A stretch of 64,000 nt of DNA from Hymenobacter properus (GTDB lineage: Bacteria; Bacteroidota; Bacteroidia; Cytophagales; Hymenobacteraceae), in the NCBI RefSeq assembly GCF_015694735.1, contig NZ_JADQDP010000003.1, positions 558,001-622,000 on the forward strand. Reading direction: 5' to 3'. A program made the translations under genes and the position numbers. Under the pieces are notes generated by a model, which had not been told where the DNA came from, did not search any database, and saw only the letters and a program-made list of their open reading frames with translations. Positions within the stretch are counted from its first letter, which is position 1, and every line of letters starts with the position of its first letter. This document shows, in pieces, positions 13,997 through 27,535 of the stretch.

Positions 13997-16159
13997 CTAC
14001 TTCAGTATTTGATATACTATGAAAGCTGCTGCATAGGCCAGGCCAGTCATGTACAGCAGCTGGGCCAGCGGCCAGCGCCAGCTCTTGGTTTCACGGTACG
14101 TCACGGCCAGCGTGCTCATGCACTGCATGGCAAACACGTAGAACACCAGCAGCGAAAACGCCCGCGCCGGCGTGAAAAACGGTTGCCCGCTGGCATCACG
14201 CTCGGCACTCAGCTTCTCTTGCAGCGTGCCCATGTCCGCATCCTGCCCCACGCTGTAGATGGTTGATATTGTGCCCACAAACACTTCCCGCGCCGCAAAC
14301 GAGGTGAGCAGCGCAATGCCGATTTTCCAGTCGTAGCCCAGCGGCCGGATGGCCGGCTCCAGCGCGCGCCCAAAAGAGCCCGCGTAGGAGTTTTCCAGCC
14401 GGGCCGAGGCCACGCGGCGACTGGTTTCGGCTTCGTCCCATTTCTGTGTTGGGGCTTCCTGGCGCACCTGGGCTTCGGCCGTTTCCTGGCGGTTACCGGG
14501 GCCGTAGCTGGCCAGCACCCACAGCAGCACCGAGATGGCCACAATCACCCGGCCGGCCTGAAGCACAAAGGCCTGCACTTTCTGGTAGATGGTGAGGCCC
14601 ACGTTTTTCCAGCGCGGCCACTGGTACACCGGAAACTCCATGATGAAGTAGCTCCGCTCACGAGCCTTCAGCACCGTTTTCAGCACCCAGGCCGAGGTTA
14701 GGGCCGAGAACAAGCCCAGCAGGTACAGCCCCATCAGGGCCACGCCGCGCAGGTTGAAAATGCCCCAGGCGGCCTGGTCGGGCACCACCAGCGCCACCAG
14801 CACCGTGTATACCGGAATGCGGGCCGAGCACGACATCAGCGGCGTCACGAAGATGGTTATCATCCGGTCCTTCCAGCTCTCAATGGTGCGCGCACCCATG
14901 ATGGCCGGCACCGCGCAGGCCAGCCCCGAAATCAACGGCACTACGCTCTTGCCGCTCAGCCCGAATGGACGCATCAGCTTGTCCATCAAAAAAGTAACGC
15001 GGGCCATGTAACCCGTTTCCTCCAGCACCGCCAGAAAACCGAAGAGCAAGGCAATCTGTGGAATGAAGATGAGCACGCCGCCCAGGCCGGCCAGCACGCC
15101 CTCCGTCAGCAGCCGGACGAGTGGGCCGTGGAAGTTCTCCTGAATAGTGGCGCTCAGGGCCGAGATGCCCTGGTCTATCCAGTCCATAGGGTACTGCGCC
15201 CAGGCAAAAATGGCCTGAAACAGCAGGAACAGGATGCCCAGAAAAATCAGGTAGCCGCCCACGCGGTGCGTCAGCACCTTGTCGATGCGGTTGCTCACCG
15301 GCTCGCGGATTTCGGTGCGTGTCACCGTCACCGTTTCTAGCAGGATTTCGTTGATTCGGGCGTAGCGGGCAATGGTTTCAGCCGCCTGCTGCGCCGTGGC
15401 ATCGAAGCCGTATTTCTGCGTCAGCTCCTGAATGTGCGCCTTTTCGTCGGCGCTCAGGAAGCCAATCTGCCGGAACTGCTGGGCGTAGTGCAGCGCCAGG
15501 TAGTCGTTGTGCAGGTTGAAGTAGTAGCGAATCTGGCGCACCAGCGGCAGCAACTCCTCGGTCGGTTCCCAGCAGCGCACCGGCGGGGCATCCAGCCGCT
15601 GGGCCATCACAATCTTGAGGGCCGCCACGCCAATGCCCTTCCGGGCATTCATCGGAATAATGGGTACGCCCAATTCCTGCTCCAGCGCCTGCAGGTCAAT
15701 GTTCACGCCGTGGCGCTCGGCAACGTCCATCATATTCAGGGCTAGCACCGCCGGCAGCCCCAGGTCGCCGAGTTGCGTGAACAGCAGCAGGCTGCGGCGC
15801 AGGTTATTGGCGTCCACCGTCACCACCACAAAATCGGGGTAGTTATCGGCGCCTTTATCGTAAAGCAGGTCGGTTATTACCTTCTCGTCCAGGCTCTTGG
15901 GGTAGAGCGAGTAGGTGCCCGGCAGGTCAATAATCTCAGCTCGTTGGGTGGCCGTGAGCTGCGACACCCCGGTTTTGCGGTCCACCGTCACGCCGGGGAA
16001 GTTGCCCACCTTCTGGTTGAGGCCGGTGAGTTGGTTGAAAAGCGACGTTTTGCCGCTATTCGGGTTGCCAATCAGGGCAATGCGGACTGGGCGTGCGGCG
16101 GCCGTGGCGGCCACCTGGCCGTCGGCTACCTCCGCCGGATTGCTCATCGTTGCCGCCAT
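13997..16159 (-). CDS. feoB: Ferrous iron transporter B
   Basis: 720 residues. The N-terminal GTPase domain has G1 GNPNSGKTSLFN (about 32-43), G3 DLPGTYSL, and G4 NMMD. The helical guanine-dissociation-inhibitor region follows, then a polytopic membrane domain with two Gate motifs (GLSGKSVVPLISGLACAVPAIMG and the MSCSARIPVY block, which carries the conserved cysteine). It imports Fe(II) across the inner membrane. The start codon lies 9 nt after the feoA stop, so translation is coupled. It is slightly longer than minimal FeoB because of a hydrophilic loop near the C-terminal third (RQEAPTQKWDEAETSRRVA). The final helices are complete and the stop is normal. Confidence 0.97.
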   Translation of the reverse strand: MAATMSNPAEVADGQVAATAAARPVRIALIGNPNSGKTSLFNQLTGLNQKVGNFPGVTVDRKTGVSQLTATQRAEIIDLPGTYSLYPKSLDEKVITDLLYDKGADNYPDFVVVTVDANNLRRSLLLFTQLGDLGLPAVLALNMMDVAERHGVNIDLQALEQELGVPIIPMNARKGIGVAALKIVMAQRLDAPPVRCWEPTEELLPLVRQIRYYFNLHNDYLALHYAQQFRQIGFLSADEKAHIQELTQKYGFDATAQQAAETIARYARINEILLETVTVTRTEIREPVSNRIDKVLTHRVGGYLIFLGILFLLFQAIFAWAQYPMDWIDQGISALSATIQENFHGPLVRLLTEGVLAGLGGVLIFIPQIALLFGFLAVLEETGYMARVTFLMDKLMRPFGLSGKSVVPLISGLACAVPAIMGARTIESWKDRMITIFVTPLMSCSARIPVYTVLVALVVPDQAAWGIFNLRGVALMGLYLLGLFSALTSAWVLKTVLKARERSYFIMEFPVYQWPRWKNVGLTIYQKVQAFVLQAGRVIVAISVLLWVLASYGPGNRQETAEAQVRQEAPTQKWDEAETSRRVASARLENSYAGSFGRALEPAIRPLGYDWKIGIALLTSFAAREVFVGTISTIYSVGQDADMGTLQEKLSAERDASGQPFFTPARAFSLLVFYVFAMQCMSTLAVTYRETKSWRWPLAQLLYMTGLAYAAAFIVYQILK

Positions 16160-16168
16160 TCTTTGTCG

Positions 16169-16447
16169 TTAGTCCTTCAGCATAATCGTGGCGGCCTCGC
16201 TGGCCCGCACCGATAGCGTGTACTCCTGGTCGCCTAGCACCAGCATCAGCGGGTCGCCAAGGGGCGCACGGCCGCTCAGGCGCACCTGCACGCCGGGGAT
16301 GCAGCCCATTTCCAGCAGCTTCAAGGCCATTTCGGGGTCTTCGAGGCAGCAGATGGTACCCGTTTCGCCCAGACGCAGGTCTTGGGCCGAGCGCCGGGAG
16401 CCAGCGGCAGCCGTGGGTTTGGGGGCAGAACGACGGAAAAGAGCCAC
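16169..16447 (-). CDS. feoA: Ferrous iron transport protein A (SH3-like)
   Basis: 92 residues, a usual length for FeoA plus a short basic leader (MALFRRSAPKPTAAAG). The SH3-like core contains LRLGETGTICCLEDPEMALKLLEMGCIPG, corresponding to the conserved L..MG..PG signature, and ends DQEYTLSVRASEAATIML. FeoA is a small cytoplasmic partner of FeoB. It is first in a two-gene operon with feoB. A -7 element (TACCTTTG, 16489-16496 on the minus strand) and an overlapping TTATTTAGA half-site operator point to iron-dependent repression. Confidence 0.95.
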   Translation of the reverse strand: MALFRRSAPKPTAAAGSRRSAQDLRLGETGTICCLEDPEMALKLLEMGCIPGVQVRLSGRAPLGDPLMLVLGDQEYTLSVRASEAATIMLKD

Positions 16448-16468
16448 GGGTGGGAAGGGCGTTAGTAC

Positions 16469-16491
16469 TTATTTAGAAACAATACAAACAA
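16469..16491 (-). promoter_or_regulatory. Candidate iron-responsive operator upstream of feoAB
   Basis: On the plus strand: TTATTTAGA, 5-nt spacer, TACAAACAA. The first half-site is identical to the perfect palindrome before the siderophore receptor; the second matches its expected complement at 6 of 9 bases. It overlaps the feoA -7 element, a position suited to repression. Confidence 0.5.
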
Positions 16492-16496
16492 AGGTA
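16489..16496 (-). promoter_or_regulatory. -7 promoter element of feoAB
   Basis: TACCTTTG on the minus strand exactly fits the Bacteroidota -7 consensus TAnnTTTG, about 42 nt before the feoA ATG. Confidence 0.6.
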
Positions 16497-16644
16497 CGAC
16501 TGCAAAAGCTTCTCGACTTACAACATTTTTTCTTCGTCGTTCAAAGGGCGGCCAGCACGTTCTTTTTAGGTCATTCAAGCTCCAGCTTTAAGGGAATGGT
16601 TGTATGTGCTGAATATTTCTAATAACTTTCCGCCCTCTAATTTG

Positions 16645-16652
16645 TAATTTTG
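16645..16652 (+). promoter_or_regulatory. -7 promoter element of the first carboxypeptidase-regulatory gene
   Basis: TAATTTTG fits TAnnTTTG, 20 nt upstream of the ATG at 16673, giving a leader of roughly 15 nt. No convincing -33 element is visible. Confidence 0.55.
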
Positions 16653-16672
16653 TCCGTTCTATCACGCATCCT

Positions 16673-17572
16673 ATGTCCTTACGCCTACTTCTATTAGCAT
16701 TATTTATAGCTGCTTTTACCACATCCAGCTGGGCCCAGCAAGTTCAGATTAAGGGTGTAATTGTGGACAAAGACACCAAGGAGCCGCTGCCTTTTTCTTC
16801 GATAGGCCTGAAAAACGAGCAAATCGGAGCCCTCAGCAACGAGCACGGCATCTTCATTGTGCCGGCACCCACGCAAAACACGGCCGACTCGTTGGTGGTA
16901 GTGGCGCTGGGCTACGCCCGCCGGGCCGTGCTGGTGAAAAAGGGCGTGGCCCTGACCAACCTCACCATCGAGGTGCCCAAGCGGGCCGTCGAGCTGGGTA
17001 ACGTGACGGTGAAGGGTGGCAAGGTGAAAAACCTGGGCCTCGGCGCCAAATCCGACAACCCGGGCGAGGGCATGATTCAGGGCCTGCCGGGCAGCCAGTA
17101 TGCTTTTTTCGTCAAGAATGAAAAGAAGAAAAAGCTAGGCAACGTGCGGACGGTGTCGTTCTACATCGGCGAAAACGGCTTTCCGCGCGAGCCCTTCCGC
17201 GTGCGCCTCTACAAGGCTGATGGTAACTACAACGCCCCCAACACCGACCTGCTCACCGAAAACGTCGTCGTGTCGGCCCCGCAGGGCGGGCAGTGGTACA
17301 CCGTCGACCTGACGCCCTACAACATCAGCGCGCCGGAGGAAGGCTTCTTCGTGGCCATGGAATGGGTGGTGAGCGGCGACAAGTTTTTCGCCACCAACTT
17401 CATGGACGACTATACGCCCTACGGCCAGATTATGCGCCCCACCTTTGAATTTAAAGAAAGCCGCACCTGGAACTACTCCATTGGCAAGGGCTGGAGCCTT
17501 ATCACTGCCTCCAACGGGCAGGGCCTGCGCTACAACGCCATGATTAAGGCTGAGGTGGACATGATTAAGTAG
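16673..17572 (+). CDS. Secreted carboxypeptidase-regulatory-like domain protein (cassette copy 1)
   Basis: 299 residues. A signal peptide (LRLLLLALFIAAFTTSSWAQ) is followed by a CarboxypepD_reg-like beta-sandwich (about 24-110: IKGVIVDKDTKEPLPFSSIGL ... LSNEHGIFIV) and a C-terminal domain of about 180 residues containing GMIQGLPGSQYAFFVKN and FYIGENGFPREPFRVRLY. I do not recognise the C-terminal domain as a named family. It is almost the same length as the protein encoded at 20322-21221. From about residue 115 the two are nearly identical at protein and DNA level, while the N-terminal halves differ clearly. It is convergent with a hydrolase-fold gene (17757-19154), and both share a junction built from a long inverted repeat and a terminator. 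A surface or periplasmic role is likely; nothing more specific can be said. Confidence 0.85.
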   Translation: MSLRLLLLALFIAAFTTSSWAQQVQIKGVIVDKDTKEPLPFSSIGLKNEQIGALSNEHGIFIVPAPTQNTADSLVVVALGYARRAVLVKKGVALTNLTIEVPKRAVELGNVTVKGGKVKNLGLGAKSDNPGEGMIQGLPGSQYAFFVKNEKKKKLGNVRTVSFYIGENGFPREPFRVRLYKADGNYNAPNTDLLTENVVVSAPQGGQWYTVDLTPYNISAPEEGFFVAMEWVVSGDKFFATNFMDDYTPYGQIMRPTFEFKESRTWNYSIGKGWSLITASNGQGLRYNAMIKAEVDMIK

Positions 17573-17758
17573 TCCGAACCGCAGATTCTGCAGATTGAAC
17601 GGATTTCACAGATTCATTGCTGCGCTGTTCGGGTCATTCTAGCTTTGCAAAAGTCATAAAAGAAAAAGGCCCTACTTGTGTAGGGCCTTTTTTGTGCAGC
17701 AGCAGAGCCGTTAGAATCTGTGAAATCCGTTCAATCTGCTTAATCTGCGGTTCGGACT
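17571..17758. repeat. 45-bp inverted repeat flanking a terminator (cassette 1 junction)
   Basis: Arms 17571-17615 and 17714-17758 are reverse complements with two mismatches (core CGCAGATT..GCAGATTGAACGG). They begin inside the TAG stop codons of both convergent genes, so each mRNA ends with the same extension. The same arrangement recurs at 21221-21411. Confidence 0.9.
17663..17693. terminator. Bidirectional terminator, cassette 1
   Basis: AAAAAGGCCCTAC / GTAGGGCCTTTTTT hairpin with a 4-nt loop and T runs on both strands, between two convergent genes and inside the long inverted repeat. Confidence 0.9.
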
Positions 17759-19154
17759 ACTTCTTCACGCCCAGGCCCACAATCCATTCGCGGATGGTTT
17801 CCAATGCGGCGGGCGAGAACAGGGGTAGCATTTCGCCGTTCATCAAGGTCCATTCGGTTTTGGGGGGCTGAAACAAGTGGTTGACGCCGGGCAGGCGCTT
17901 GGATACAGTGCCGCGGTTGATGCTACGCAGCTCCTTCTCCAGCGCGGTGAGATGCAGCTCGGCCGGAGCTTGCAAGTCGTTGGTGCCATTGAGCAATAGC
18001 ACCGGGCAGCTCACCTCATCCAGTTCGGCGATAGGGTCGAACGACAAAAAATAGGTTCGCCAAGGCGTGAGCAGTTGGGCTGCCTGGGCCTGGGCCGCTT
18101 TGGCGTCGAGGTTGGGCTGGTCCTGCCGCATCATGTTGGCCACAATGGCCTGGGCCTGCGGGGTGCCCGTCTGGCGCATAATGTCGTACATGGTGCGCTG
18201 GCGCTCGTAGGCGGCCTGCACTTTCGCAGGGTCTATTTTCTGCGCCTTTTGCTCGTCTACCAGCTGCTGCAGTAAGGTCTGCTCGCCGGTGAGGCCATAG
18301 CCAGCGAGCGAGATAACAAAGGCCGGCGGCAGCGGCTTGCCAGCCGCCAGCAGGGCCACGTTGGCGCCTTCGCCGTGGCCTATCACGCCAATGCGGTTGA
18401 TGTTGATTTCCAGCTGCGAGCGCAGGAAGTTGAGGGCGGCCTGCACGTCGCTCACCAGCATGGCGGTGGTGGCGGTGTTGGTGTTGCCCCCCGATTTGCC
18501 CACGCCCCGGTCGTCGTAGCGCAGCACGGCAATGCCCCGGCGGGTGAGGTAATCAGCCAGCGAGCCCATCAGATGGTAGTCGCCGATGGTGCCGTCGCGG
18601 TCCTGTGCGCCCACGTCGCTCACCAGCACCACGGCCGGAAACGGCCCTTTGCCAGCCGGAATGGTGAAGGTGCCGGCCAAGTTTAGCCGGCCCACGGGGT
18701 TGTTGAAGGTCACCTCCTCTTCGCGGTACGGCGGCGTGAGGCGCGTGCCCGGCCCCGTGACGGTGGGCATGGGGAAATAGTACAGGCGCACCGTCGATTT
18801 CTCCTGTCCCTGCGTCCAGGTACCGTTTAGCTCGCGCTTGGTGCGGTCGAAGCGGGCGGCAAAGCGGCTGTCGGCGCCCGGCATGCGCATCAGCACCGAG
18901 TCGCCGCGCACGGTCAGCTCGGTTTCCATGCGGCTTACTTTCTGGGCAGGCACGTCGAGGGCGGCAAAAAATTTACCGTTCGACAGCGGCACCACGCTGA
19001 TGGTCACGTCCAGTTGCCCACCCAGCAGGGGCAGTTTTCCTTTCCACAAGCCGCCCAGGGGCAGCACCTCTTCAGCAGGCGTGCCGGCCGCCTTGGCTCC
19101 CCCCGCGCCTAGTATGCTCAACAGTAGCAGAACCCCGAGTAAACACTTTTTCAT
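17757..19154 (-). CDS. Secreted alpha/beta-hydrolase-fold protein without serine nucleophile (cassette copy 1)
   Basis: 465 residues: signal peptide (KKCLLGVLLLLSILGAGGAKA), an N-terminal beta domain of about 120 residues (LGGLWKGKLPLLGGQLDVTI), then an alpha/beta hydrolase domain typical of the S9-like family (PAVVLVSDVGAQDRDGT, LADYLTRRGIAVLRYDDRGVGKSGG). The nucleophile elbow, normally GHSEG in this family, reads GHGEG (VIGHGEGANVALL), so the catalytic serine is glycine. The acid (LLNGTNDLQAP) and histidine (PGVNHLFQP) positions are kept. The protein may therefore be a binding or structural relative, or use different chemistry. The paralogue at 21416-22834 has the same replacement. It is convergent with the carboxypeptidase-regulatory gene and ends in the shared inverted repeat. 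Confidence 0.85.
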   Translation of the reverse strand: MKKCLLGVLLLLSILGAGGAKAAGTPAEEVLPLGGLWKGKLPLLGGQLDVTISVVPLSNGKFFAALDVPAQKVSRMETELTVRGDSVLMRMPGADSRFAARFDRTKRELNGTWTQGQEKSTVRLYYFPMPTVTGPGTRLTPPYREEEVTFNNPVGRLNLAGTFTIPAGKGPFPAVVLVSDVGAQDRDGTIGDYHLMGSLADYLTRRGIAVLRYDDRGVGKSGGNTNTATTAMLVSDVQAALNFLRSQLEININRIGVIGHGEGANVALLAAGKPLPPAFVISLAGYGLTGEQTLLQQLVDEQKAQKIDPAKVQAAYERQRTMYDIMRQTGTPQAQAIVANMMRQDQPNLDAKAAQAQAAQLLTPWRTYFLSFDPIAELDEVSCPVLLLNGTNDLQAPAELHLTALEKELRSINRGTVSKRLPGVNHLFQPPKTEWTLMNGEMLPLFSPAALETIREWIVGLGVKK

Positions 19155-19353
19155 CCCGTATTAATGCAAATCCAGTTATGGCATCTGCAAGATACACAAT
19201 AACTGCCTCATGCCCTAAAATCGGGCTTGTTCGCAACGCGCCAGCGGCAACTCAATAGGTCTGTAAAAACATCAATTTCATTCGCTATTATCATAATAAA
19301 CTTATAATCAATAAAATGCTCTATATGCTTCGAAGCAAGCATAGGGCAGTAAA

Positions 19354-19386
19354 GCAAAAAGGCCCAGCCGTGTGCACGGCCGGGCC
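19354..19386 (-). terminator. Terminator of the OmpA lipoprotein gene
   Basis: On the minus strand GGCCCGGCCGTG-CA-CACGGCTGGGCC (one mismatch) followed by TTTTTGCTTT, about 30 nt after the OmpA stop. The remaining 19155-19353 stretch shows no gene. Confidence 0.85.
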
Positions 19387-19416
19387 TCAACTAAGCTTGC
19401 AAACGCAATGAGCGGG

Positions 19417-20034
19417 CTACTTGGTGCGCACCGCAATTTCCACGCGGCGGTTTTCCTGGCGGCCGGCAGCAGTTGCATTGGTGGCGGCAGGCATTGCCTC
19501 GCCCATGGGCTCTACACTCACACGGCTGGCATCGATGCTGCCGTTGGTGACGAGGTAGTTTTTCACGGCTTCGGCGCGCTTCTCGCTCAACTCCTTATTG
19601 TAGTCTTTGTCGCCGCGCGAGTCGGCAAAGCCCATCACGCGCACCTGGCGGGAACTATAGCGCTGGCCAATGGAACCCGTAATCTGCTTCAGCGCTTCGG
19701 CGGCGGAGGGCTTGATGTCGGCCTTATCGGTGTCGAACAATATCTTCTCGTCTACGCTGTACACGTTGTAGGTGCTGTCGCCGCGCACACTCACGCCGGG
19801 CAGCGTGATTTCCTTGAACTTCACGTCGGCCAGCTTGGCCTTGGTCAGGTCCCAGGCATTGTCGGCGGCATCGGCGGCGCCGGCGGCCATGTCGCCGGCC
19901 GTCTGGCCGGTGCGCGCCATCACGGCGGTGTCCTGGCCGGCTTCGCTGAGCTGGTCTTTGGTTTCGGAGTGCTTGGTTTCGCAGCTGGCCAGCAGCGCCG
20001 TGGCGGCCAGCAGCGACAGGAGGGATTTTTTCAT
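19417..20034 (-). CDS. OmpA-family lipoprotein
   Basis: 205 residues. A lipoprotein signal peptide with lipobox (MKKSLLSLLAATALLASC, lipidated Cys18) precedes a short helical linker (about 25-65) and an OmpA C-terminal peptidoglycan-binding domain (about 90-203) with FDTDKADIKPSAAEAL, VMGFADSRGDKDYNKELSEKRAEAVKNYL and the final NRRVEIAV. It would anchor the outer membrane to peptidoglycan. The gene stands between the two copies of the duplicated cassette and has its own terminator. It has no paralogue in the window, so the duplication spans but does not include it. Confidence 0.93.
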   Translation of the reverse strand: MKKSLLSLLAATALLASCETKHSETKDQLSEAGQDTAVMARTGQTAGDMAAGAADAADNAWDLTKAKLADVKFKEITLPGVSVRGDSTYNVYSVDEKILFDTDKADIKPSAAEALKQITGSIGQRYSSRQVRVMGFADSRGDKDYNKELSEKRAEAVKNYLVTNGSIDASRVSVEPMGEAMPAATNATAAGRQENRRVEIAVRTK

Positions 20035-20281
20035 GGCTAGAGAAAGTAGGAGTAAAAGTGAGAACGAGCCCCATTACGCAACCAAGACAGCTATGTTATT
20101 TTTTTTAGAAACCCGGCTTAAAATTCAGTTTTTTTTGGGGGTACAATAAAATCGTTCAAGCATTATTTTTGTAGTAATAAAAGCCATTTTCAGGCATTAG
20201 GCGGCTGAATTTAATTTGCATTCAGCGGGCCGCTTATTGCGCTCAGTCAATGGTATTGATGATACTCTGGCTCAGAATTTG

Positions 20282-20289
20282 TAAATTTG
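20282..20289 (+). promoter_or_regulatory. Possible -7 element (distal), cassette copy 2
   Basis: TAAATTTG, 33-36 nt upstream of the ATG pair at 20322/20325, would give a short leader. A second exact match, TATATTTG, lies at 20311-20318. Confidence 0.4.
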
Positions 20290-20310
20290 CCAGTCGCCTT
20301 CCCATTATCT

Positions 20311-20318
20311 TATATTTG
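20311..20318 (+). promoter_or_regulatory. Possible -7 element adjacent to start codon, cassette copy 2
   Basis: TATATTTG, with only 3 nt before ATG 20322 and 6 nt before ATG 20325. If used, the transcript would start at or next to the start codon (leaderless). Confidence 0.4.
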
Positions 20319-20321
20319 GCA

Positions 20322-21221
20322 ATGATGAAACGCTTACCTCTTATCGCTTTTTGGGTTCTGCTACTATTGCCCGCGCTAAGCTGGGCGCAGGAGAACCGTA
20401 TTACCGGCCGCGTCGTGGATGCCAAGACCAAAGACCCGGTGCCCTTCGCTTCTATTGGCCTGCGCGAAGAAGGTACTGGAGCTCTTACAAATGAATATGG
20501 CTATTTCCAGCTGGCTGGCTTGGAAAAGACCAGCCAAGACTCGCTGATTGTGATGACGTTGGGCTACGAGCGCAGTGCCGTGCTCATCAAGCGTGGCAGC
20601 ACCGAAGACCTCATCATCGAACTGAAAAAGCGCGAGGTAAAGCTGGAAGGCTTCACCGTGAAAGGTGGCAAGGTGAAGAACTTAGAACTGGGTTCGAAGT
20701 CGAATAATCCTGGTGAAGGCATGATTCAGGGCCTGCCGGGCAGCCAGTATGCTTTTTTCGTGAAAAACGATAAGCAGAAAAAGCTAGGCAACGTGCGGAC
20801 GGTGTCATTCTACATCGGCGAGAACGGTTTTCCGCGCGAGCCCTTCCGCGTGCGCCTCTACAAGGCCGACGGCAACTACAACGCCCCCAACACCGACCTG
20901 CTCACCGAAAACGTCGTCGTGTCGGCCTCGCGCGGCGGCGAGTGGTATACCATCGACCTGAGCAGCTACAACATCCCGGCACCCGAGGAAGGCTTCTTCG
21001 TGGCCATGGAATGGATTGTGGGTGGCGACAAGTTCTATACCACCAACTTCATGGACAACTACACGCCCTACGGCCAGATTATGCGCCCCACCTTCGAATA
21101 CAAGGAAAGCCGCACCTGGAGCTATACCATCGGCAAGGGCTGGAACCTACTGACGCTGGCCAACGGCCAGGGCCGCCGCTACAACGCCATGATTAAGGCT
21201 GAGGTGGACATGATTAAGTAG
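20322..21221 (+). CDS. Secreted carboxypeptidase-regulatory-like domain protein (cassette copy 2)
   Basis: 299 residues from ATG 20322 (or 298 from the adjacent ATG 20325); upstream in-frame codons encode no plausible leader. The signal peptide KRLPLIAFWVLLLLPALSWAQ precedes a CarboxypepD_reg-like domain (ITGRVVDAKTKDPVPFASIGL) and the same unnamed C-terminal domain as the protein at 16673-17572. From GMIQGLPGSQYAFFVKN onward the two differ at only scattered residues. Long DNA blocks around 20830-20925 are essentially the same as 17170-17270, which suggests recent duplication or gene conversion restricted to the C-terminal half. It is convergent with the second hydrolase-fold gene. Confidence 0.85.
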   Translation: MMKRLPLIAFWVLLLLPALSWAQENRITGRVVDAKTKDPVPFASIGLREEGTGALTNEYGYFQLAGLEKTSQDSLIVMTLGYERSAVLIKRGSTEDLIIELKKREVKLEGFTVKGGKVKNLELGSKSNNPGEGMIQGLPGSQYAFFVKNDKQKKLGNVRTVSFYIGENGFPREPFRVRLYKADGNYNAPNTDLLTENVVVSASRGGEWYTIDLSSYNIPAPEEGFFVAMEWIVGGDKFYTTNFMDNYTPYGQIMRPTFEYKESRTWSYTIGKGWNLLTLANGQGRRYNAMIKAEVDMIK

Positions 21222-21411
21222 TCTGAATCGCAGATTCTGCAGATTGAACGGATTGCGCAGATTCTAACGGCGCAATTTGCGACATAGAAAAGGCCCTACA
21301 CGTGCGTGTAGGGCCTTTCTCTTTTATTCGTTTCGCAGAGCAAGAATAGTTAGGATAGTGCGGCAATGAATCTGCGCAATCCGTTCAATCTGCAGAATCT
21401 GCGGTTCAGAC
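21221..21411. repeat. 44-bp inverted repeat flanking a terminator (cassette 2 junction)
   Basis: Arms 21221-21264 and 21368-21411 are reverse complements with one mismatch and share the CGCAGATTCTGCAGATTGAACGG core with the repeat at 17571-17758. They bracket the terminator and reach to within a few bases of the stop codons of both convergent genes. Confidence 0.9.
21288..21319. terminator. Bidirectional terminator, cassette 2
   Basis: AAAAGGCCCTACACG / CGTGTAGGGCCTTTC hairpin, in the same position and with the same GGCCCTAC core as the cassette 1 terminator. Confidence 0.88.
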
Positions 21412-21415
21412 GCCG

Positions 21416-22834
21416 CTACTTCTTCGCTTGCGCTACAATCCATTCGCGGATGGTTTCCTCGGCTTCGGGCGAGAAGTTGGGCTGGGGCTGGCCGTTGATG
21501 ATGGGCCATTTGGTGGCATCGGGCTGGAAGAGGTGGTTCACACCTTGCAGCTTTTTCACGGTCACGCCTTTGTTCTTGCTCAGGCCGTTTTTCAGCGCGT
21601 TTAGGTTGGCGTCGGCGTTGATGGTGAGGTCGGACGTGCCGTTGAGGAGCAACACCGGGCAAGTCACAGCCGACAGCTTCTCGATGGGGTTGAACGCCAG
21701 GAAATAGCGGTAGCGGGGCGAGGTCATCTCGGCGGCGCTGGCCTGGGCCGTAGCGTTGTCGATGGCTGCGTTGCTTTGCTTTAGCATGTTGGCCACAATG
21801 GCCTGGGCTTGGGCGTTGTCGGTGGTTTGCCGAATGATTTCCAGCATGGCTTGCTGGCGCTTGGTGGCGGCTTCAATCTGCGCATTTTCGGTGCCGAGCG
21901 TGCGCAGGGTGGTGGCCTGCTGCTGCACCACAATGTCGCGGCCGGGCAGGCCGTAGGCGGCCAGCGTCACCACGAAAGCCGGCGGCAGGGGCTGCGCGGC
22001 GGCTAGCAGGGCCACGTTGCCGCCTTCGCCGTGACCCACCAGGCCGAGGTGGGCCAGGTCGATTTCGGGGCGGGTGCGCAGGTAATTGAGGCCGGCTTGG
22101 GCGTCACTCACCAGGTCAGCGGTGGTCACGGCAGGAGTGCCGCCCGATTTACCGGTGCCCCGGTCATCGAAGCGTAGCACGGCCACGCCGCGGCGGGTGA
22201 GGTAGTCGGCCAGCAGGCCCAGGGGGGCGAAGTCGCCCACGGTGCCGTCGCGGTCCTGCGGGCCGGCATCGGAAAGCAGCACCACGGCTGGGAAGGGGCC
22301 TGGGCCGGCTGGGATGGTGAGCATGCCGGCCAGGCGGGTGTTCACGGTGAGGTTGCTGAAGGTGGCTTCTTCTTCGCGGTAGGGCGGGGTGAGGCGCACG
22401 TTCTTGGCGTTCATGGCCGGCAGGGGGCTGAAGGTGAGCGTCATGGGCACTTTGAAGCCGGGCGACTGCCAGGTGCCGGCCATCTGCTTGCCATCGGCCG
22501 AAACGCGGCCGGTGAAGCGGGTGGCCGCTTCTTCGGCATATAGGCGCACGGTATCGCCCTTCACCTCGGTTTTTACGGCCATGCGGCTCACCTTCTGCAG
22601 GGGCACGTCGAGGGTAGCGAAGTATTCGCCGCCGGTAAGCTTCACAAAACGGAAGATGACTTCGAGCTGGCCGCCGGGCACTTTCAGCTGGCCCTTCCAG
22701 AGGCCATCGAGGGCGGGCGCATCGGCAGCGGCCAACGGGGCGGTGCTCGGGCGGGCCCAGCCGTGATTAGCGATGGAGAAGCAGAATAAGAACGCGCCCA
22801 GGAGGCGCAGTAAACGATAGGTATTAATGGTCAT
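21416..22834 (-). CDS. Secreted alpha/beta-hydrolase-fold protein without serine nucleophile (cassette copy 2)
   Basis: 472 residues, paralogous to the product of 17757-19154 along its whole length: signal peptide (about 1-28), N-terminal beta domain (LDGLWKGQLKVPGGQLEVIF), and alpha/beta hydrolase domain (PAVVLLSDAGPQDRDGT, LADYLTRRGVAVLRFDDRGTGKSGG). The elbow again reads GHGEG (LVGHGEGGNVALL), so the loss of the catalytic serine predates or accompanied the duplication. Asp (LLNGTSDLTIN) and His (QGVNHLFQP) positions remain. The two hydrolases are more diverged from one another than the C-terminal halves of their convergent neighbours. A TAACTTTG -7 element is found 37 nt upstream. Confidence 0.85.
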   Translation of the reverse strand: MTINTYRLLRLLGAFLFCFSIANHGWARPSTAPLAAADAPALDGLWKGQLKVPGGQLEVIFRFVKLTGGEYFATLDVPLQKVSRMAVKTEVKGDTVRLYAEEAATRFTGRVSADGKQMAGTWQSPGFKVPMTLTFSPLPAMNAKNVRLTPPYREEEATFSNLTVNTRLAGMLTIPAGPGPFPAVVLLSDAGPQDRDGTVGDFAPLGLLADYLTRRGVAVLRFDDRGTGKSGGTPAVTTADLVSDAQAGLNYLRTRPEIDLAHLGLVGHGEGGNVALLAAAQPLPPAFVVTLAAYGLPGRDIVVQQQATTLRTLGTENAQIEAATKRQQAMLEIIRQTTDNAQAQAIVANMLKQSNAAIDNATAQASAAEMTSPRYRYFLAFNPIEKLSAVTCPVLLLNGTSDLTINADANLNALKNGLSKNKGVTVKKLQGVNHLFQPDATKWPIINGQPQPNFSPEAEETIREWIVAQAKK

Positions 22835-22871
22835 AGCTTAAAGGAAGGGCAACGGAAATGCCAATGGCCCC

Positions 22872-22879
22872 CAAAGTTA
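22872..22879 (-). promoter_or_regulatory. -7 promoter element of hydrolase-fold gene copy 2
   Basis: TAACTTTG on the minus strand fits TAnnTTTG; 37 nt before the ATG at 22834. Confidence 0.5.
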
Positions 22880-22935
22880 TCAGTAGCAAAATAAATATCC
22901 TGCCAATCTTTCATAGCGCCATCGTTTGCAGTGAA

Positions 22936-22969
22936 AAAGCCCTCGTTTCCGACCGGAAACGAGGGCTTT
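22936..22969 (-). terminator. Terminator of the receptor/amine oxidase operon
   Basis: Perfect 15-bp stem (22936-22950 with 22955-22969, loop GACC) followed by T residues on the minus strand, about 20 nt after the amine oxidase stop. Confidence 0.9.
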
Positions 22970-22990
22970 GCGATTGATTGGGCCTGGAGA

Positions 22991-24679
22991 CTAGGCTGGC
23001 ATCAGTGCCTGGCGCAGCCGCGATACCAATGCCACTTTTTTGGTAGTAGCGGCTTGCAAGATGGCCTGGGCAGCGAGGCGGCCGGTTTCGGCGGCCCCAT
23101 TCATGTAGCCCTGGAAATAGGCGCTGCAGTGCTCACCGGCGAAGAACAGGTTGCCCACGGGCCGGCCTTCGGCGCCGGCTATGGTGGTGTACTGACCGGG
23201 GCGGTAGCAGGCATAACTGGCCAGCGTGAGCGGGTGGCTGGGCCAGTGGAAGCGTTCCACCTTGCCGTTGTACTGGGCCTGGGTGCCGGGCCAGGCAGCT
23301 TCCAGCGTGGGCAGGAAGCGACTTACCTGCGAATGCGGCGAGCCCGTGCCCATGTCCACGCCCACCTGGCCGCCTACAAACACGGTGTAGGCGCCGGCGG
23401 TGCCGGGCTGCAGCTGGCTGCCATCCCAGCCGCCCTGCGCGGCCTGGTCGGTGAAGAGGTAGCCGGTGTAGCCGTTGGTGCGCCAAGGACGGCTGTTGAA
23501 GCCCAGAAACAGCTTGGCGTTGGTGCCGTAGCCCAGGTTGTTGATGGCGTTGGTTTTCCAGGCGGGCAGGGGCAAGTTCAGGGCCACTTGGCGCAGCACG
23601 GTGAACGGAATGGTGAGCACCACCACATCGGCCGTGACGGTGACGGTGCTGCCACTGGGCTGCTGGAAGGTAAGAATGTATTCGTCGGCCGGCTTGGTGA
23701 TGGCCGTGAGCTTGTGCTGCAGCGTGATTTGGCCAGCTAGGCGCTGGGCCAGGGCATCGGTGAGGCGCTGGTTGCCGCCCTGGATTTTATATCGTTCGTC
23801 GCTGATACCGAAGATGTCGAACGTGCCCTTGCGGGTATCGGGCGAGAACATCCACAGAAAGTTGATGGCCGTTTGCTGGTTGGCTTCGAGGCCGTATTCG
23901 GTCACGTAAGCCACTTCGAGCAGGGTGCGAATCATGCCCACCATCCCGATGGAATCGAAATAGCCTGAGATGGACAGCTGGTCGAAGGGACCGGCCGCAC
24001 CGTAGTTGTCGAACACGATGGTGTTGGGCATGGCCCGCACGTCGTCGGTGATGCGGGCCACGTAGGGTTGGAAGGCCTGAATCACCTCCTGCAGCGAGTA
24101 GCGGCGGTTGTTGAGGAAGTAAGTGTCCTTGATAAGGGCCGTTTCGCTGGGGGCCTCCACATCGAGCAGCGGCAGGCCGAACTCCTGCGCCAGGTTCAGC
24201 ATGTCGATGTGGCCGCTGTCGATGAACTCGCCGCCGAGCTCGGTGGTGAGGCCGGCGCCCATCAGGTTTTTGGCGGTGAAAATGCGCCCGCCCACGCGGC
24301 TGCCAGCCTCGTAGATGCTGGCCGTGATGCCGCCTCGCTGCAGCTTGTAGGCGCAGTTGAGGCCGGCCATGCCCGCTCCTACCACCACCACCCGGGCCGC
24401 CCCACCCTGAGCATTGCTGGCCTTGAAGGCCGTGAGGTCGGCGGCGGGCTCTACGGCTACGGTTTCGCAGGCAGCAAGCAGCCCTGTGGCCCCGGCCAGC
24501 ACGCCGAACTTGGCGCCAGTGGCCAGAAAACGGCGGCGGCTGTGGTCTTCGGCCTGCTCAACAAGCTCCGCCACGGTGGGCGCGCCGGGCTGTTCGGCCG
24601 CCACAGCCAGGCCAAAGGCCTTTTGGAGGGAGCGCAGCAAATCGGTGCGGGCAGGGCGTGGCGTAGAAAATTCGTTCAT
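22991..24679 (-). CDS. Tat-exported flavin monoamine oxidase family protein
   Basis: 562 residues. An N-terminal cytoplasmic-type leader of about 47 residues precedes a twin-arginine signal (RRRFLATG, 48-55) with a possible lipobox (LLAAC, Cys71). The FAD-binding Rossmann motif VVVGAGMAGLNCAYKL starts near residue 98, with the downstream GSRVGGRI motif. The C-terminal FAD motif is NLFFAGEHCSAYFQGYMNGAAETGRLAA. The family comprises monoamine, polyamine and L-amino-acid oxidases, which release H2O2 and ammonia. The substrate cannot be assigned from sequence. The long pre-Tat extension is unusual but continuous. The gene lies 54 nt after a TonB-dependent receptor gene on the same strand, so a substrate taken up through the outer membrane may be oxidised in the periplasm. 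Confidence 0.88.
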   Translation of the reverse strand: MNEFSTPRPARTDLLRSLQKAFGLAVAAEQPGAPTVAELVEQAEDHSRRRFLATGAKFGVLAGATGLLAACETVAVEPAADLTAFKASNAQGGAARVVVVGAGMAGLNCAYKLQRGGITASIYEAGSRVGGRIFTAKNLMGAGLTTELGGEFIDSGHIDMLNLAQEFGLPLLDVEAPSETALIKDTYFLNNRRYSLQEVIQAFQPYVARITDDVRAMPNTIVFDNYGAAGPFDQLSISGYFDSIGMVGMIRTLLEVAYVTEYGLEANQQTAINFLWMFSPDTRKGTFDIFGISDERYKIQGGNQRLTDALAQRLAGQITLQHKLTAITKPADEYILTFQQPSGSTVTVTADVVVLTIPFTVLRQVALNLPLPAWKTNAINNLGYGTNAKLFLGFNSRPWRTNGYTGYLFTDQAAQGGWDGSQLQPGTAGAYTVFVGGQVGVDMGTGSPHSQVSRFLPTLEAAWPGTQAQYNGKVERFHWPSHPLTLASYACYRPGQYTTIAGAEGRPVGNLFFAGEHCSAYFQGYMNGAAETGRLAAQAILQAATTKKVALVSRLRQALMPA

Positions 24680-24733
24680 ATCGGGTGGGAAAAATGGATG
24701 GGATGAAGCATGTCAGAAGCCAAAGCTAATGCT

Positions 24734-27535
24734 TTATTGTCCAAAGCCATAGGATGCTTTCAGATAAAAAAATGCTCCATTGGCACCCATTTGCACCATC
24801 TGATAGGGCAGGATGTCGTGGTCGTAAGGGGTGGTCGAAACCGCGCCGCCGTTTTGCTGGGCAAAATATTGCTGGTAGGCGGCCATCGAGGCGAAGCCGT
24901 CGGGCGCGTGGCCGTTTTGGGCGGCTTGGAGCAGGTCGTCGGGGCGTACGTTGAAGAGGTTGTGGGCGCCGGCGGCCAGCATCAGGTTTTTGGCGGGCTT
25001 GTAGGTCAGTATCAGGTCCGTTACCGACTTGGGGCTGAACACGAGGTAGTAGGCGCCTTCGTCTAGCCCGTCGAAGTTGAAGTCGTAGAACGACACCTGG
25101 CCGAAGCGTGTGTAGCGCGCCGTGGCGCCCAGCTTGCGGCCCTCATAACCCACGCTGGCGAGGATTTTACTTTTGGGGCTGCCCGTGGTGATGAGCGAGA
25201 GCTGGCGCTGACCAATGAAGTTGTTGCCGGTAATGTCGTCGTTCTGAATGCCCTGAAACAGCGTGGGTACCTGCAGGCTGCGCAGCGTGGTGGCGTTGAA
25301 ATTGGCGGCGGCGGTGAAGCGCAGCTGGCCGCGGCCCAGCGGAGTGCTATAGCTGCCCACCAGGTCGAGGCCGCGGGTGCGGGTATTCACGGCGTTGGCA
25401 AAGAACTGCACGCTGGTGGTTTGGGCCCGGTTCAGGGCCGCGTCGAAGGCCGGGGCAATGCCGGCGCCAAACTCGTTGGTGAGCGAAATACGGTTGTCGA
25501 TGTCAATCTGGTAGGCGTCGGCGGTGAGCACCAGGTCTTTGGCTGGCGTAAACACCAAGCCGGCGCTGGCGTTGCGCGAGTTTTCAGCCTTGAGCTTGCC
25601 GATGCCCGCCACCTGGGCAATGTCGCTTTGGTTGTTGTAGATGCCCGAGTAGGTGGTGCCGCTGGCCGTGGGCAGCAGCGTGAGCTGGCGGTAGAGTTGC
25701 TGGTGCTGCGAGGGCGCCCGGAAACCGGTGTTGTAGGCCGCGCGCACGGCCAGGCCTTTGGCGGCCTGCCAGCGGGTGGTGGCTTTGTAGATGAAGGCCG
25801 AGCCGAAGTCGGAATACCGCTCGTAGCGCACCGCCCCGCCCACGGTCCAGGTTCTCACCACGTCGGCTTCCACGTCAAGAAAGCCGGCTGCGTTCTGGCG
25901 GCTACCCGAGATGGCCGACGTAGGGTCGAAGCCGATGAAGCCCTGCGAGCCGCCCGAGGCACCGGGCGCCCCGGCCTGGTAGTTCTTCCAGGAATTCTCT
26001 TCGCCGGCCACAATCTCATAAAAGTCGTTCCGGAACTCGCCGCCAAAAGCCACGTTGGTGCCCGCCAATATGTTGTCGAATAATCGGTTGGCCGCCACGT
26101 TGGTCACGGCCTGCGTAAACTGCAGTCCGCCCGCTTCGAAGGTGGTGGGCGAAGCGGCGCCCATCGATGGGTTCAGCGTGTTGCTCAGGTCGTAGCGCAT
26201 GCGGTTGGTGCCCAAGCTCTGGCTCAGGTCTAGGTCCCAGCGGCCCAGCTTCAGGTCGAGGCCGGCCACGGCGCCGCCGTCGTGGATGCGGGTGTTGATG
26301 TTGGGCTGGTAGCCCAGGTCGAAGCCGGGCCGGGTGCCGAGGTCGGCGGGGTTGGCGCTGGGCAGCACCCAGGGCGCCACGGCCTGGCCGCGACGGAAAT
26401 TGTAGGTGCCGAACGAGTAGAAGCGCGCCTTTTCCGAGAGTTCGATGCCCGCGTTGTACACGGCCCGGTAGTTGGTGATGATGGCGTCGCCGTTGCGCTG
26501 GCGGTAGTCTTTGGCCGTTTTGTGGTTGGCCAGCAGAAAGGAATCTTCGCTTGCCCGGTTGTTGGAGTAGATGGGCCAGGAGTTTAAGTCGCGGGTGTAG
26601 TTGGGGCTAGTGGTGTAGCCCCGGTAGTCCACCTCACCGGTCACGTTCAGGAAGCCTTTGCTGCCCAGCTTCAGGCCCTTGTTCAGGCTTACGGTGGTGT
26701 TGTAGCCAAAGCCCGACTGATGGATGCCGTTGTTCACCAAAATGTTGCCGCCGTGGTTGTCGCTTTTGAGGCTGAGGTTGATAACGCCGGCAATGGCGTC
26801 GGAGCCGTACTGGGCAGCCGCGCCGTCGCGCAGCACCTCCGCACGGTCGAGGGCATTGGCCGAGATGGTGTTCAAATCGGTGGTGGCGCTGCCGTAGGAA
26901 CGGCTGCCCAGCAAGTTGATGAGGGCCGAGGTGTGGCGGCGCTTGCCGTTCACGAGCACCAGCACCTGGTCGGAGCCGAGGCCGCGCAGGGTGGCGGCGT
27001 CCACGTGGTCGGCGCCGTCGGCCGAGGTTTCGCGCACCGAGTTGAACGACGGCACCACGTAGTTGAGCAACTGCGTATTGTCGGTGCGCGGGGCCGTGAG
27101 AGCCAGCTCGCGCATGTCAATCACGTCAACAGGTGCTACCGATTCCAGAGCCGTGCGGTCGAGGCGGCGCGTGCCCACGGCCACCACGTTGAGGACCAGT
27201 TCCAGGGCAAAGTTGGCCGGCGTTTCACCCTTCAGGAACACATTGTTGATAACCTGTGAACGGTAGCCGGGCTGGCTGATTTGCAAGGCATAAGGCCCGC
27301 CGGTGAGCAGCTGGCTCATCATAAAATGGCCTTGTGCATCAGTAGTCGTTGCTCGCCGGATGCCGGTGGGCAAGTGCAGCACAGCCACCGTCACGCCCGG
27401 CAGGGCCGCGCCTTTTTCGCTGTGGATGTCGCCCGTTACGGTGGCAACGGCCGTGGCCTGGGCCCAGGCCGTGCCCTGCCGTCCAGCCAAAACCAATAGC
27501 AAAACCAGAAAAAAAGAAAGTCGAAGTGCTTGCAT
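24734..27535 (-). CDS. TonB-dependent receptor with carboxypeptidase-regulatory N-terminus
   Basis: 933 residues. Signal peptide LRLSFFLVLLLVLAGRQGTAWA, a carboxypeptidase-regulatory domain (TGDIHSEKGAALPGVTVAVLHL), a plug domain (VDVIDMRELALTAPRTDNTQLLNYVVPSFNS, DQVLVLVNGKRRHTSALINLLG, RAEVLRDGAAAQYGSDAIAGVIN), then a large beta-barrel ending in YLKASYGFGQ. The plug matches iron-complex or vitamin-type TonB receptors rather than SusC, and no SusD gene follows. It heads a two-gene unit with the amine oxidase. The substrate is unknown; the linked oxidase hints at an amine-containing ligand. The last residue is Gln rather than the usual aromatic, with Phe at -2. Confidence 0.9.
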   Translation of the reverse strand: MQALRLSFFLVLLLVLAGRQGTAWAQATAVATVTGDIHSEKGAALPGVTVAVLHLPTGIRRATTTDAQGHFMMSQLLTGGPYALQISQPGYRSQVINNVFLKGETPANFALELVLNVVAVGTRRLDRTALESVAPVDVIDMRELALTAPRTDNTQLLNYVVPSFNSVRETSADGADHVDAATLRGLGSDQVLVLVNGKRRHTSALINLLGSRSYGSATTDLNTISANALDRAEVLRDGAAAQYGSDAIAGVINLSLKSDNHGGNILVNNGIHQSGFGYNTTVSLNKGLKLGSKGFLNVTGEVDYRGYTTSPNYTRDLNSWPIYSNNRASEDSFLLANHKTAKDYRQRNGDAIITNYRAVYNAGIELSEKARFYSFGTYNFRRGQAVAPWVLPSANPADLGTRPGFDLGYQPNINTRIHDGGAVAGLDLKLGRWDLDLSQSLGTNRMRYDLSNTLNPSMGAASPTTFEAGGLQFTQAVTNVAANRLFDNILAGTNVAFGGEFRNDFYEIVAGEENSWKNYQAGAPGASGGSQGFIGFDPTSAISGSRQNAAGFLDVEADVVRTWTVGGAVRYERYSDFGSAFIYKATTRWQAAKGLAVRAAYNTGFRAPSQHQQLYRQLTLLPTASGTTYSGIYNNQSDIAQVAGIGKLKAENSRNASAGLVFTPAKDLVLTADAYQIDIDNRISLTNEFGAGIAPAFDAALNRAQTTSVQFFANAVNTRTRGLDLVGSYSTPLGRGQLRFTAAANFNATTLRSLQVPTLFQGIQNDDITGNNFIGQRQLSLITTGSPKSKILASVGYEGRKLGATARYTRFGQVSFYDFNFDGLDEGAYYLVFSPKSVTDLILTYKPAKNLMLAAGAHNLFNVRPDDLLQAAQNGHAPDGFASMAAYQQYFAQQNGGAVSTTPYDHDILPYQMVQMGANGAFFYLKASYGFGQ

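Follow-up and report, generated by a model that had tools for sequence, protein, structure and literature searches.

We analyzed a window of 64,000 nucleotides from Hymenobacter properus (C3:558001-622000 in a genome of 5.54 Mb). It contains a pair of convergent genes, one coding for a carboxypeptidase-regulatory (CPR) protein and the other for an alpha/beta-hydrolase-fold protein, which occurs twice beside the ferrous iron uptake genes feoAB. A1 converges with A2 and B1 with B2, and a gene for an OmpA-family lipoprotein lies between the two pairs, each gene being found where an initial annotation had placed this twice-occurring unit. In a self-comparison of the window, the repeats stand at an offset of 3,649 to 3,656 bases, confirming the duplication. 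The features, in window positions, are as follows.

13997..16159, minus strand: feoB, ferrous iron transporter (PF02421, 9e-56; PF07670; PF07664)
16169..16447, minus strand: feoA, divergent 5′ neighbor of A1 (PF04023, 3.5e-13)
16673-17572, plus strand: A1 (CPR_A), 299 amino acids, with a signal-peptide-like start (PF13715, 2.3e-11)
17009..17281, plus strand: putative conversion zone of A1, residues 113-203 in B1 numbering (silent-site tests, breakpoint scan)
17574..17615, plus strand: left arm of the first period-9 inverted repeat
17663..17692, strand not assigned: terminator-like hairpin between the arms of the first repeat
17714..17756, minus strand: right arm of the first period-9 inverted repeat
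17757..19154, minus strand: A2 (HYD_A), predicted exported alpha/beta-hydrolase-fold protein in which GHGEG replaces GxSxG (PF12146, 7.4e-11)
19417..20034, minus strand: OmpA-family lipoprotein (PF00691, 4.3e-22)
20322..21221, plus strand: B1 (CPR_B) (PF13715, 2.1e-15; start chosen from relatives)
20658..20930, plus strand: putative conversion zone of B1, residues 113-203 (silent-site tests, breakpoint scan)
21223..21264, plus strand: left arm of the second repeat element
21289..21318, strand not assigned: terminator-like hairpin between the arms of the second repeat
21368..21409, minus strand: right arm of the second repeat element
21416..22834, minus strand: B2 (HYD_B), alpha/beta-hydrolase-fold protein lacking the nucleophile, with Gly269, Asp402 and His434

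The first ATG and longest open reading frame would start B1 at 20250, but full-length relatives (297 to 306 amino acids) favor 20322. The feoAB genes directly upstream, the missing nucleophile and the repeats in both gaps go beyond what the initial annotation had described. No known RNA family reached its gathering score in positions 16000-23200.

The CPR proteins consist of a signal-peptide-like start, a transthyretin-like CarbopepD_reg_2 domain (the N-domain) and a domain of ~180 amino acids without a Pfam family (the C-half). A1 and B1 score 44 and 56.6 bits against PF13715, above its gathering score of 32.2 bits, and this family is matched by 37 of 37 aligned CPR members at E values up to 0.1. 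Besides these N-domain matches and two weak stray families, no Pfam family was found for the C-half among the 37 members. The structural model of B1 is poor in the C-half (predicted local distance difference test score [pLDDT] below 50 at residues 234-283), and its structure matches cover mainly residues 23-108.

Within this genome, the two copies have diverged unevenly. Their protein identity is 71% for the CPR proteins and 52% for the hydrolases, and the synonymous divergence (dS) of the CPR pair in 40-codon blocks is 0.23 to 0.57 across the last ~165 codons but at least 1.4 or saturated before them, except for one block at 0.76. A maximum chi-square scan placed the breakpoint near window base 17065 of A1, with a difference of 0.427 before it and 0.114 after it (χ2 = 115, compared with at most 19 in 2,000 shuffles). 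With silent codons alone, 35 of 65 differed before the breakpoint and 22 of 135 after it, and none of 5,000 shuffles was as extreme. The protein identities, the block dS values and the sharp breakpoint bear out the initial annotation in that divergence is not uniform and that the CPR N-terminal halves and the hydrolases have diverged more. Its description of the C-terminal halves as almost identical down to the DNA best fits bases ~17051 to 17290 of A1, where identity is 0.89 to 0.93 (120-base steps); from there to the gene end it is 0.82 to 0.88.

Two causes had been put forward for this pattern, gene conversion of one segment and strong constraint. Under constraint alone, silent identity between A and B should be equal within and between genomes. 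For this comparison we fetched 68 related loci, all from Hymenobacter, which together with the window yielded 109 CPR and 72 hydrolase frames. Twenty-four loci, again with the window, carry both A and B CPR genes. Not all loci are independent genomes (a single species split over contigs supplies both L026 and L037, a single metagenome-assembled genome both L024 and L032, and two strain names occur twice), and the silent-site comparison used one genome per species. A CPR fragment (L027_2855) and a contig-edge gene (L035_17) were excluded from trees and A/B counts, leaving 107 of 109, and hydrolases shorter than 350 amino acids were excluded, leaving 70 of 72. Both short hydrolases come from L027 (H. 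lapidarius), where HYD_B is divided between two overlapping frames of 336 and 213 amino acids (L027:6739-8159) and is probably broken; the CPR fragment of the same locus (L027:2855-3526) lacks most of the N-domain and lies between CPR_A and HYD_A.

Over the 24 loci, the four-fold identity between A and B in the C-half was 0.730 within genomes and 0.635 between genomes, an excess matched by none of 20,000 permutations. The within-genome value lies above even that of orthologs (A-A, 0.645; B-B, 0.653). In the N-half, identity was 0.451 both within and between genomes. In sliding windows, the within-genome excess was highest at residues 121-200, where it amounted to +0.106 to +0.122, a level reached in 0 of 5,000 permutations. 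The five windows that end by residue 120 gave −0.008 to +0.043, windows between residues 61 and 140 gave +0.028 to +0.047, and farther along the gene the excess was weaker than at 121-200 (+0.03 to +0.08). When each locus was compared with its nearest genome only, residues 113-203 retained an excess of +0.064, positive in 17 of 24 loci (P = 0.0005), with +0.006 in the N-domain (P = 0.4) and −0.008 in the tail (P = 0.56). Fixed differences between A and B number 18 in residues 23-112 (none after residue 89), 0 in residues 90-203 and 11 in residues 204-285. The higher silent identity within than between genomes indicates that gene conversion recurs in ~90 codons on top of strong constraint, and the lack of fixed differences in residues 90-203, followed by 11 at 204-285, indicates that it acts mainly in one zone with a copy-specific stretch behind it. 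Recurrent conversion is the simplest cause of the silent-site homogenization of CPR over approximately residues 113-203, in line with the first of the two proposed causes. The hydrolases showed little sign of conversion over 19 loci, with within-genome silent excesses of +0.023, +0.021 and +0.003 in three segments.

The second proposed cause is also well founded, as 121 of 181 C-half residues are invariant in both paralogs of the 24 loci, compared with 25 of 90 in the N-domain. Could constraint suffice, with a C-half conserved in protein and codon choice and no exchange between the old paralogs? Besides the invariant residues, this explanation accommodates the more biased codon usage of the C-half (expected 0.547 versus 0.413), the higher synonymous identity of orthologs there (0.65 versus 0.48 to 0.51) and the persistence of A and B as separate groups. 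Constraint should, however, act on a genome's own A/B pair just as on pairs taken from different genomes. Silent codons instead agree better within genomes, especially at residues 121-200, and the excess that persists against the nearest genome strains this explanation further. We regard constraint as the sole cause as unlikely; conversion and constraint on the C-half are not alternatives, and both operate.

Several of these observations nevertheless count against conversion as a full and neatly bounded account. As judged from the codon comparisons and the ortholog identities, part of the low C-half dS is due to codon bias and not to conversion, and the separation of A and B on the protein tree indicates that conversion has not merged the proteins. 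The nearest-genome excess is modest, and 7 of 24 loci are not positive. There is weak excess outside the zone in windows 61-100 and 81-120 (P = 0.009 and 0.027), as well as in hydrolase segment 166-300 (0.02; P = 0.007), and residues 113-203 may not be the sole converted stretch. The last third of A2 and B2 (17757-18270 versus 21416-21930) is possibly a second one: 31 of 42 four-fold sites agree, compared with a cross-genome mean of 0.58, and the agreement lies above that of 35 of 36 cross-genome pairs.

The duplication itself is old. Both copies are present in 23 other Hymenobacter loci, A and B stay apart across species in the CPR C-domain protein tree (support, 94 and 84), and the hydrolase A clade has a support of 100. 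As the genes group by copy across species, the duplication of the pair beside feoAB, and with it the split of both families into A and B lineages, predates the sampled Hymenobacter species. We also considered whether the whole unit was duplicated recently in this genome, with selection then relaxed on N-domain and hydrolases. The colinear repeats at a near-constant offset would fit such an event, but the spread of both copies over species rules it out, as do their grouping by copy rather than by genome, the fully supported hydrolase A clade and CPR N-domain silent sites that are near saturation. A single ancient domain swap, which would have brought the A1 C-domain into B1 in the ancestor of the clade with nothing since, could account for a C-domain tree in which the 66 A and B rows group against the 41 others (support, 95). 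The N-domain data are compatible with the same grouping (approximately unbiased test, p-AU = 0.565, not rejected), which makes a swap unnecessary, and a swap does not predict the within-genome silent excess. It is accordingly a distinctly improbable origin of the pattern.

The partner of CPR lacks the residue that defines a serine hydrolase. All 70 full-length locus hydrolases have the elbow G-H-G-[EQL]-G, in which glycine replaces the nucleophile serine, and none of the 70 has Ser, Cys or Asp at this site. Asp402 and His434 are kept in 70 of 70, His268 is also present in 70 of 70, and Glu270 is present in 66. The glycine is written with all four Gly codons in this set, and the ratio of nonsynonymous to synonymous divergence (dN/dS) is 0.06 to 0.22 in five ortholog pairs, indicating that the proteins are under purifying selection. 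The B2 model (pLDDT, 88) matches cinnamoyl and feruloyl esterases and lipases with Z scores of 24 to 28. Gly269 aligns with the Ser of cinnamoyl esterase chain 3pf8 (GHSQG) and with the Ala of chain 3qm1 (GHAQG); because other chains of this esterase are titled “S106A mutant,” the aligned residue is most likely the nucleophile. Compared with the serine alpha/beta-hydrolases, the locus proteins thus have the fold and, by sequence, the acid and the His but not the GxSxG nucleophile, and the window hydrolases score 86.7 and 88.4 bits against EstD (NF041096; cut-off, 600 bits) and are not members of that family. The identity “hydrolase fold” given by the initial annotation holds for the fold (PF12146 and the structure matches), while a hydrolase function is doubtful.

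Outside Hymenobacter and its sister genus, all 39 relatives examined keep the serine: 6 of 6 in other genera of the Hymenobacteraceae and 33 of 33 among the matches in other families of the order (17 + 16). In further Hymenobacter loci (L203 to L215, L203 being B2 itself), Gly is found in 13 of 13, one of which has Met for His. Of the members encoded in the H. properus genome, five carry Gly and one carries Ser, and the Ser member stands in tandem with one of the Gly members. This Ser (GHSQG)/Gly (GHGEG) tandem lies at G000:C3:86028-88921 (L117, L118), and a similar tandem in a genome of the sister genus (L155, L157) resembles it; the tandem may mark where the Gly family arose. On a tree of 67 proteins, the Gly rows form one side of a branch with a support of 100 (L057, with GHGEG, counted as Gly), implying that the Ser-to-Gly change most likely occurred once and was kept through several duplications. 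On this tree, it happened in an ancestral Hymenobacter paralog that then multiplied. The GHGEG proteins are probably nucleophile-less binding or general-base proteins rather than ordinary enzymes, although the loss of the serine does not exclude another chemistry. They might in principle be active hydrolases that use another residue or a shifted nucleophile, as the conserved Asp402, His434 and fold and the unusual His268-Gly-Glu270 set would allow. We consider this doubtful, given that Gly269 aligns with the likely nucleophile of 3pf8 and that no candidate nucleophile occupies the site in any of the 70 sequences. No description of the Gly family was found in limited searches of the open-licence literature, which is weak evidence of absence; the passages of PMC3733652 examined mention Bacteroidetes once and have nothing on Hymenobacter.

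To see how constant the pairing is, we surveyed genes within 1 kb of CPR in 72 loci (the window, the 68 fetched loci and 3 from the sister genus), with 111 CPR genes or fragments, L027_2855 and L035_17 included. The direct 3′ neighbor was a hydrolase gene in 55 of the 111 cases, OmpA in 30, a same-direction CPR gene in 11, an opposite-direction CPR gene in 1, none of these in 9 and a contig end in 5. The two families are thus not rarely adjacent elsewhere, but the pairing is looser than the initial annotation had proposed, and the constant neighbor is feoA, which lies divergently upstream of the first CPR gene in 69 of 72 loci; in the other 3 the contig is cut. For co-occurrence, 11 of 69 loci were set aside as cut by contig ends (by our own reading), leaving 58. 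Within these, HYD_A was found only with CPR_A (23 of 23), which makes it plausible that CPR_A and HYD_A form a unit. CPR_A occurred without HYD_A in 7 of 30 uncut loci, and no hydrolase gene was present within the ~6 kb of sequence examined in 16 of 58. The genes are therefore not always together, as an obligate two-gene system would have them, and the suggestion that the two proteins work together stands in this weaker form.

The constant divergent position beside feoA suggests, at the level of gene order, a role in ferrous iron uptake or coregulation with it. Against this link, the gene order may have become frozen, and 17 of 17 genomes from other Hymenobacteraceae genera have feoAB but no CPR gene in the ~5 kb upstream; in L133, the one of these cases checked, feoAB lies beside a Mur ligase-alanine racemase gene. 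Among 200 sampled genomes of the family, CPR matches with a near-full score (E value of 3.3e-135 or better) occurred in 116 of 116 genomes of the window's genus and in 8 of 8 of one sister genus, while the best match in the remaining 76 was 2.9e-30. CPR relatives from other genera were found in 30 loci of 20 genomes (identity of 24 to 35% in the 28 aligned by tblastn), with no feoAB within ~1.5 kb in any of the 30. Taken together, this distribution and the CPR-less feoAB of other genera suggest that the cluster probably expanded in the Hymenobacter lineage, in the space between feoA and the Mur gene.

A block of ~30 bases adjoining feoA (~16466 to 16498) is largely invariant in 29 loci and may be a Bacteroidetes promoter with an overlapping operator; in the same comparison, made with a possible operator shared by feoA and CPR in mind, other short conserved blocks lie near the CPR start. 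Downstream of B2 are genes for an amine oxidase and a TonB-dependent receptor (22991-27535), followed by a Mur ligase-alanine racemase fusion. The amine oxidase and receptor occur together in 3 of the 68 fetched loci (L011 to L013), although many of the 68 end too early to show whether they are present.

Both convergent gaps (17574-17756 and 21223-21409) contain a mirrored pair of arms, in which GATT recurs at nine-base intervals, on either side of a terminator-like hairpin. This period-9 pattern occurs 16 times in the H. properus genome, compared with 0 for a reversed control; of 120 family genomes, 68 contain it, against 4 control matches overall. For 17 paired sites drawn from three genomes, arm agreement at the variable bases is 0.88 within a site and 0.47 between sites, the within-site match being somewhat inflated because the best-matching arm pair was kept for each site. 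The arms are 37 to 266 bases apart, and 10 of the 17 sites have a terminator-like hairpin by a scripted count. The element is dispersed (L162, L164, L167 and others), and the site in L164 is not between convergent genes. It deserves separate study.

The explanation that best accommodates these data combines an old duplication of the pair, conversion within one CPR zone, a nucleophile-less partner, putative roles of both proteins in the envelope and a suggested link to iron; we give this whole a probability of roughly 0.6. Transthyretin-like domains are common in envelope proteins. CPR would be a two-domain envelope beta-sandwich protein, and both it and the hydrolase-fold protein would be exported. 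In the homogenized stretch of CPR, the two copies would probably share a face for binding or assembly, and the fixed differences in N-domain and tail would probably make them differ in specificity. The GHGEG protein might bind an ester-like or acyl ligand without hydrolyzing it or might carry out His-Asp general-base chemistry. More tentatively, and with the odds against it, the Hymenobacter-wide exported nucleophile-less family and CPR could work together in the envelope to capture a ligand or as a general-base enzyme system, with a link to ferrous iron; conversion would then keep one CPR face identical while the rest specializes.

The CPR gene provides a natural internal control that separates constraint from conversion. 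As homogenization is strongest in ~90 codons and copy-specific residues are fixed just behind them, it is a good case for studying how selection limits gene conversion in bacteria. Annotation of the Hymenobacter GHGEG family as hydrolases calls for caution: the change to glycine is old, single on the tree and conserved, and these proteins therefore likely do something else.

Several known systems resemble parts of this locus. Like other tandem paralogs in concerted evolution, the CPR genes show silent homogenization within genomes; they differ in that it is confined mainly to ~90 codons between a diverged domain and a copy-specific tail. The first domain of CPR matches the N-terminal extension of SusC and the transthyretin-like domains of carboxypeptidases with Z scores of 11 to 13 (for the B1 model and the SusC extension 9hfj, Z = 13.0, with a root mean square deviation of 2.3 over 80 residues), and it is shared with stand-alone CarbopepD_reg_2 proteins. 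In contrast to SusC transporters, CPR has a ~180-amino-acid domain without a Pfam family instead of a plug and barrel. B1 scores 24.7 bits against the SusC/RagA model TIGR04056 (cut-off, 368 bits), over the first domain only, the same scan gave no match for A1, and a protein of 299 amino acids without plug and beta-barrel does not belong to the SusC/RagA TonB-dependent receptors. The GHGEG proteins resemble EstD and the cinnamoyl and feruloyl esterases (PF12146, NF041096) in fold, in the Asp and His of the triad and in hidden Markov model matches but differ from them in lacking the nucleophile serine and in scoring 88 bits against the EstD cut-off of 600. Neuroligins are alpha/beta-hydrolase-fold proteins without a nucleophile, and cofactor-free dioxygenases use a His-Asp dyad. 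The GHGEG proteins are similar to these in the replacement of Ser by Gly or in a possible His-Asp chemistry, whereas they differ in being bacterial, apparently exported and part of a Hymenobacter gene cluster.

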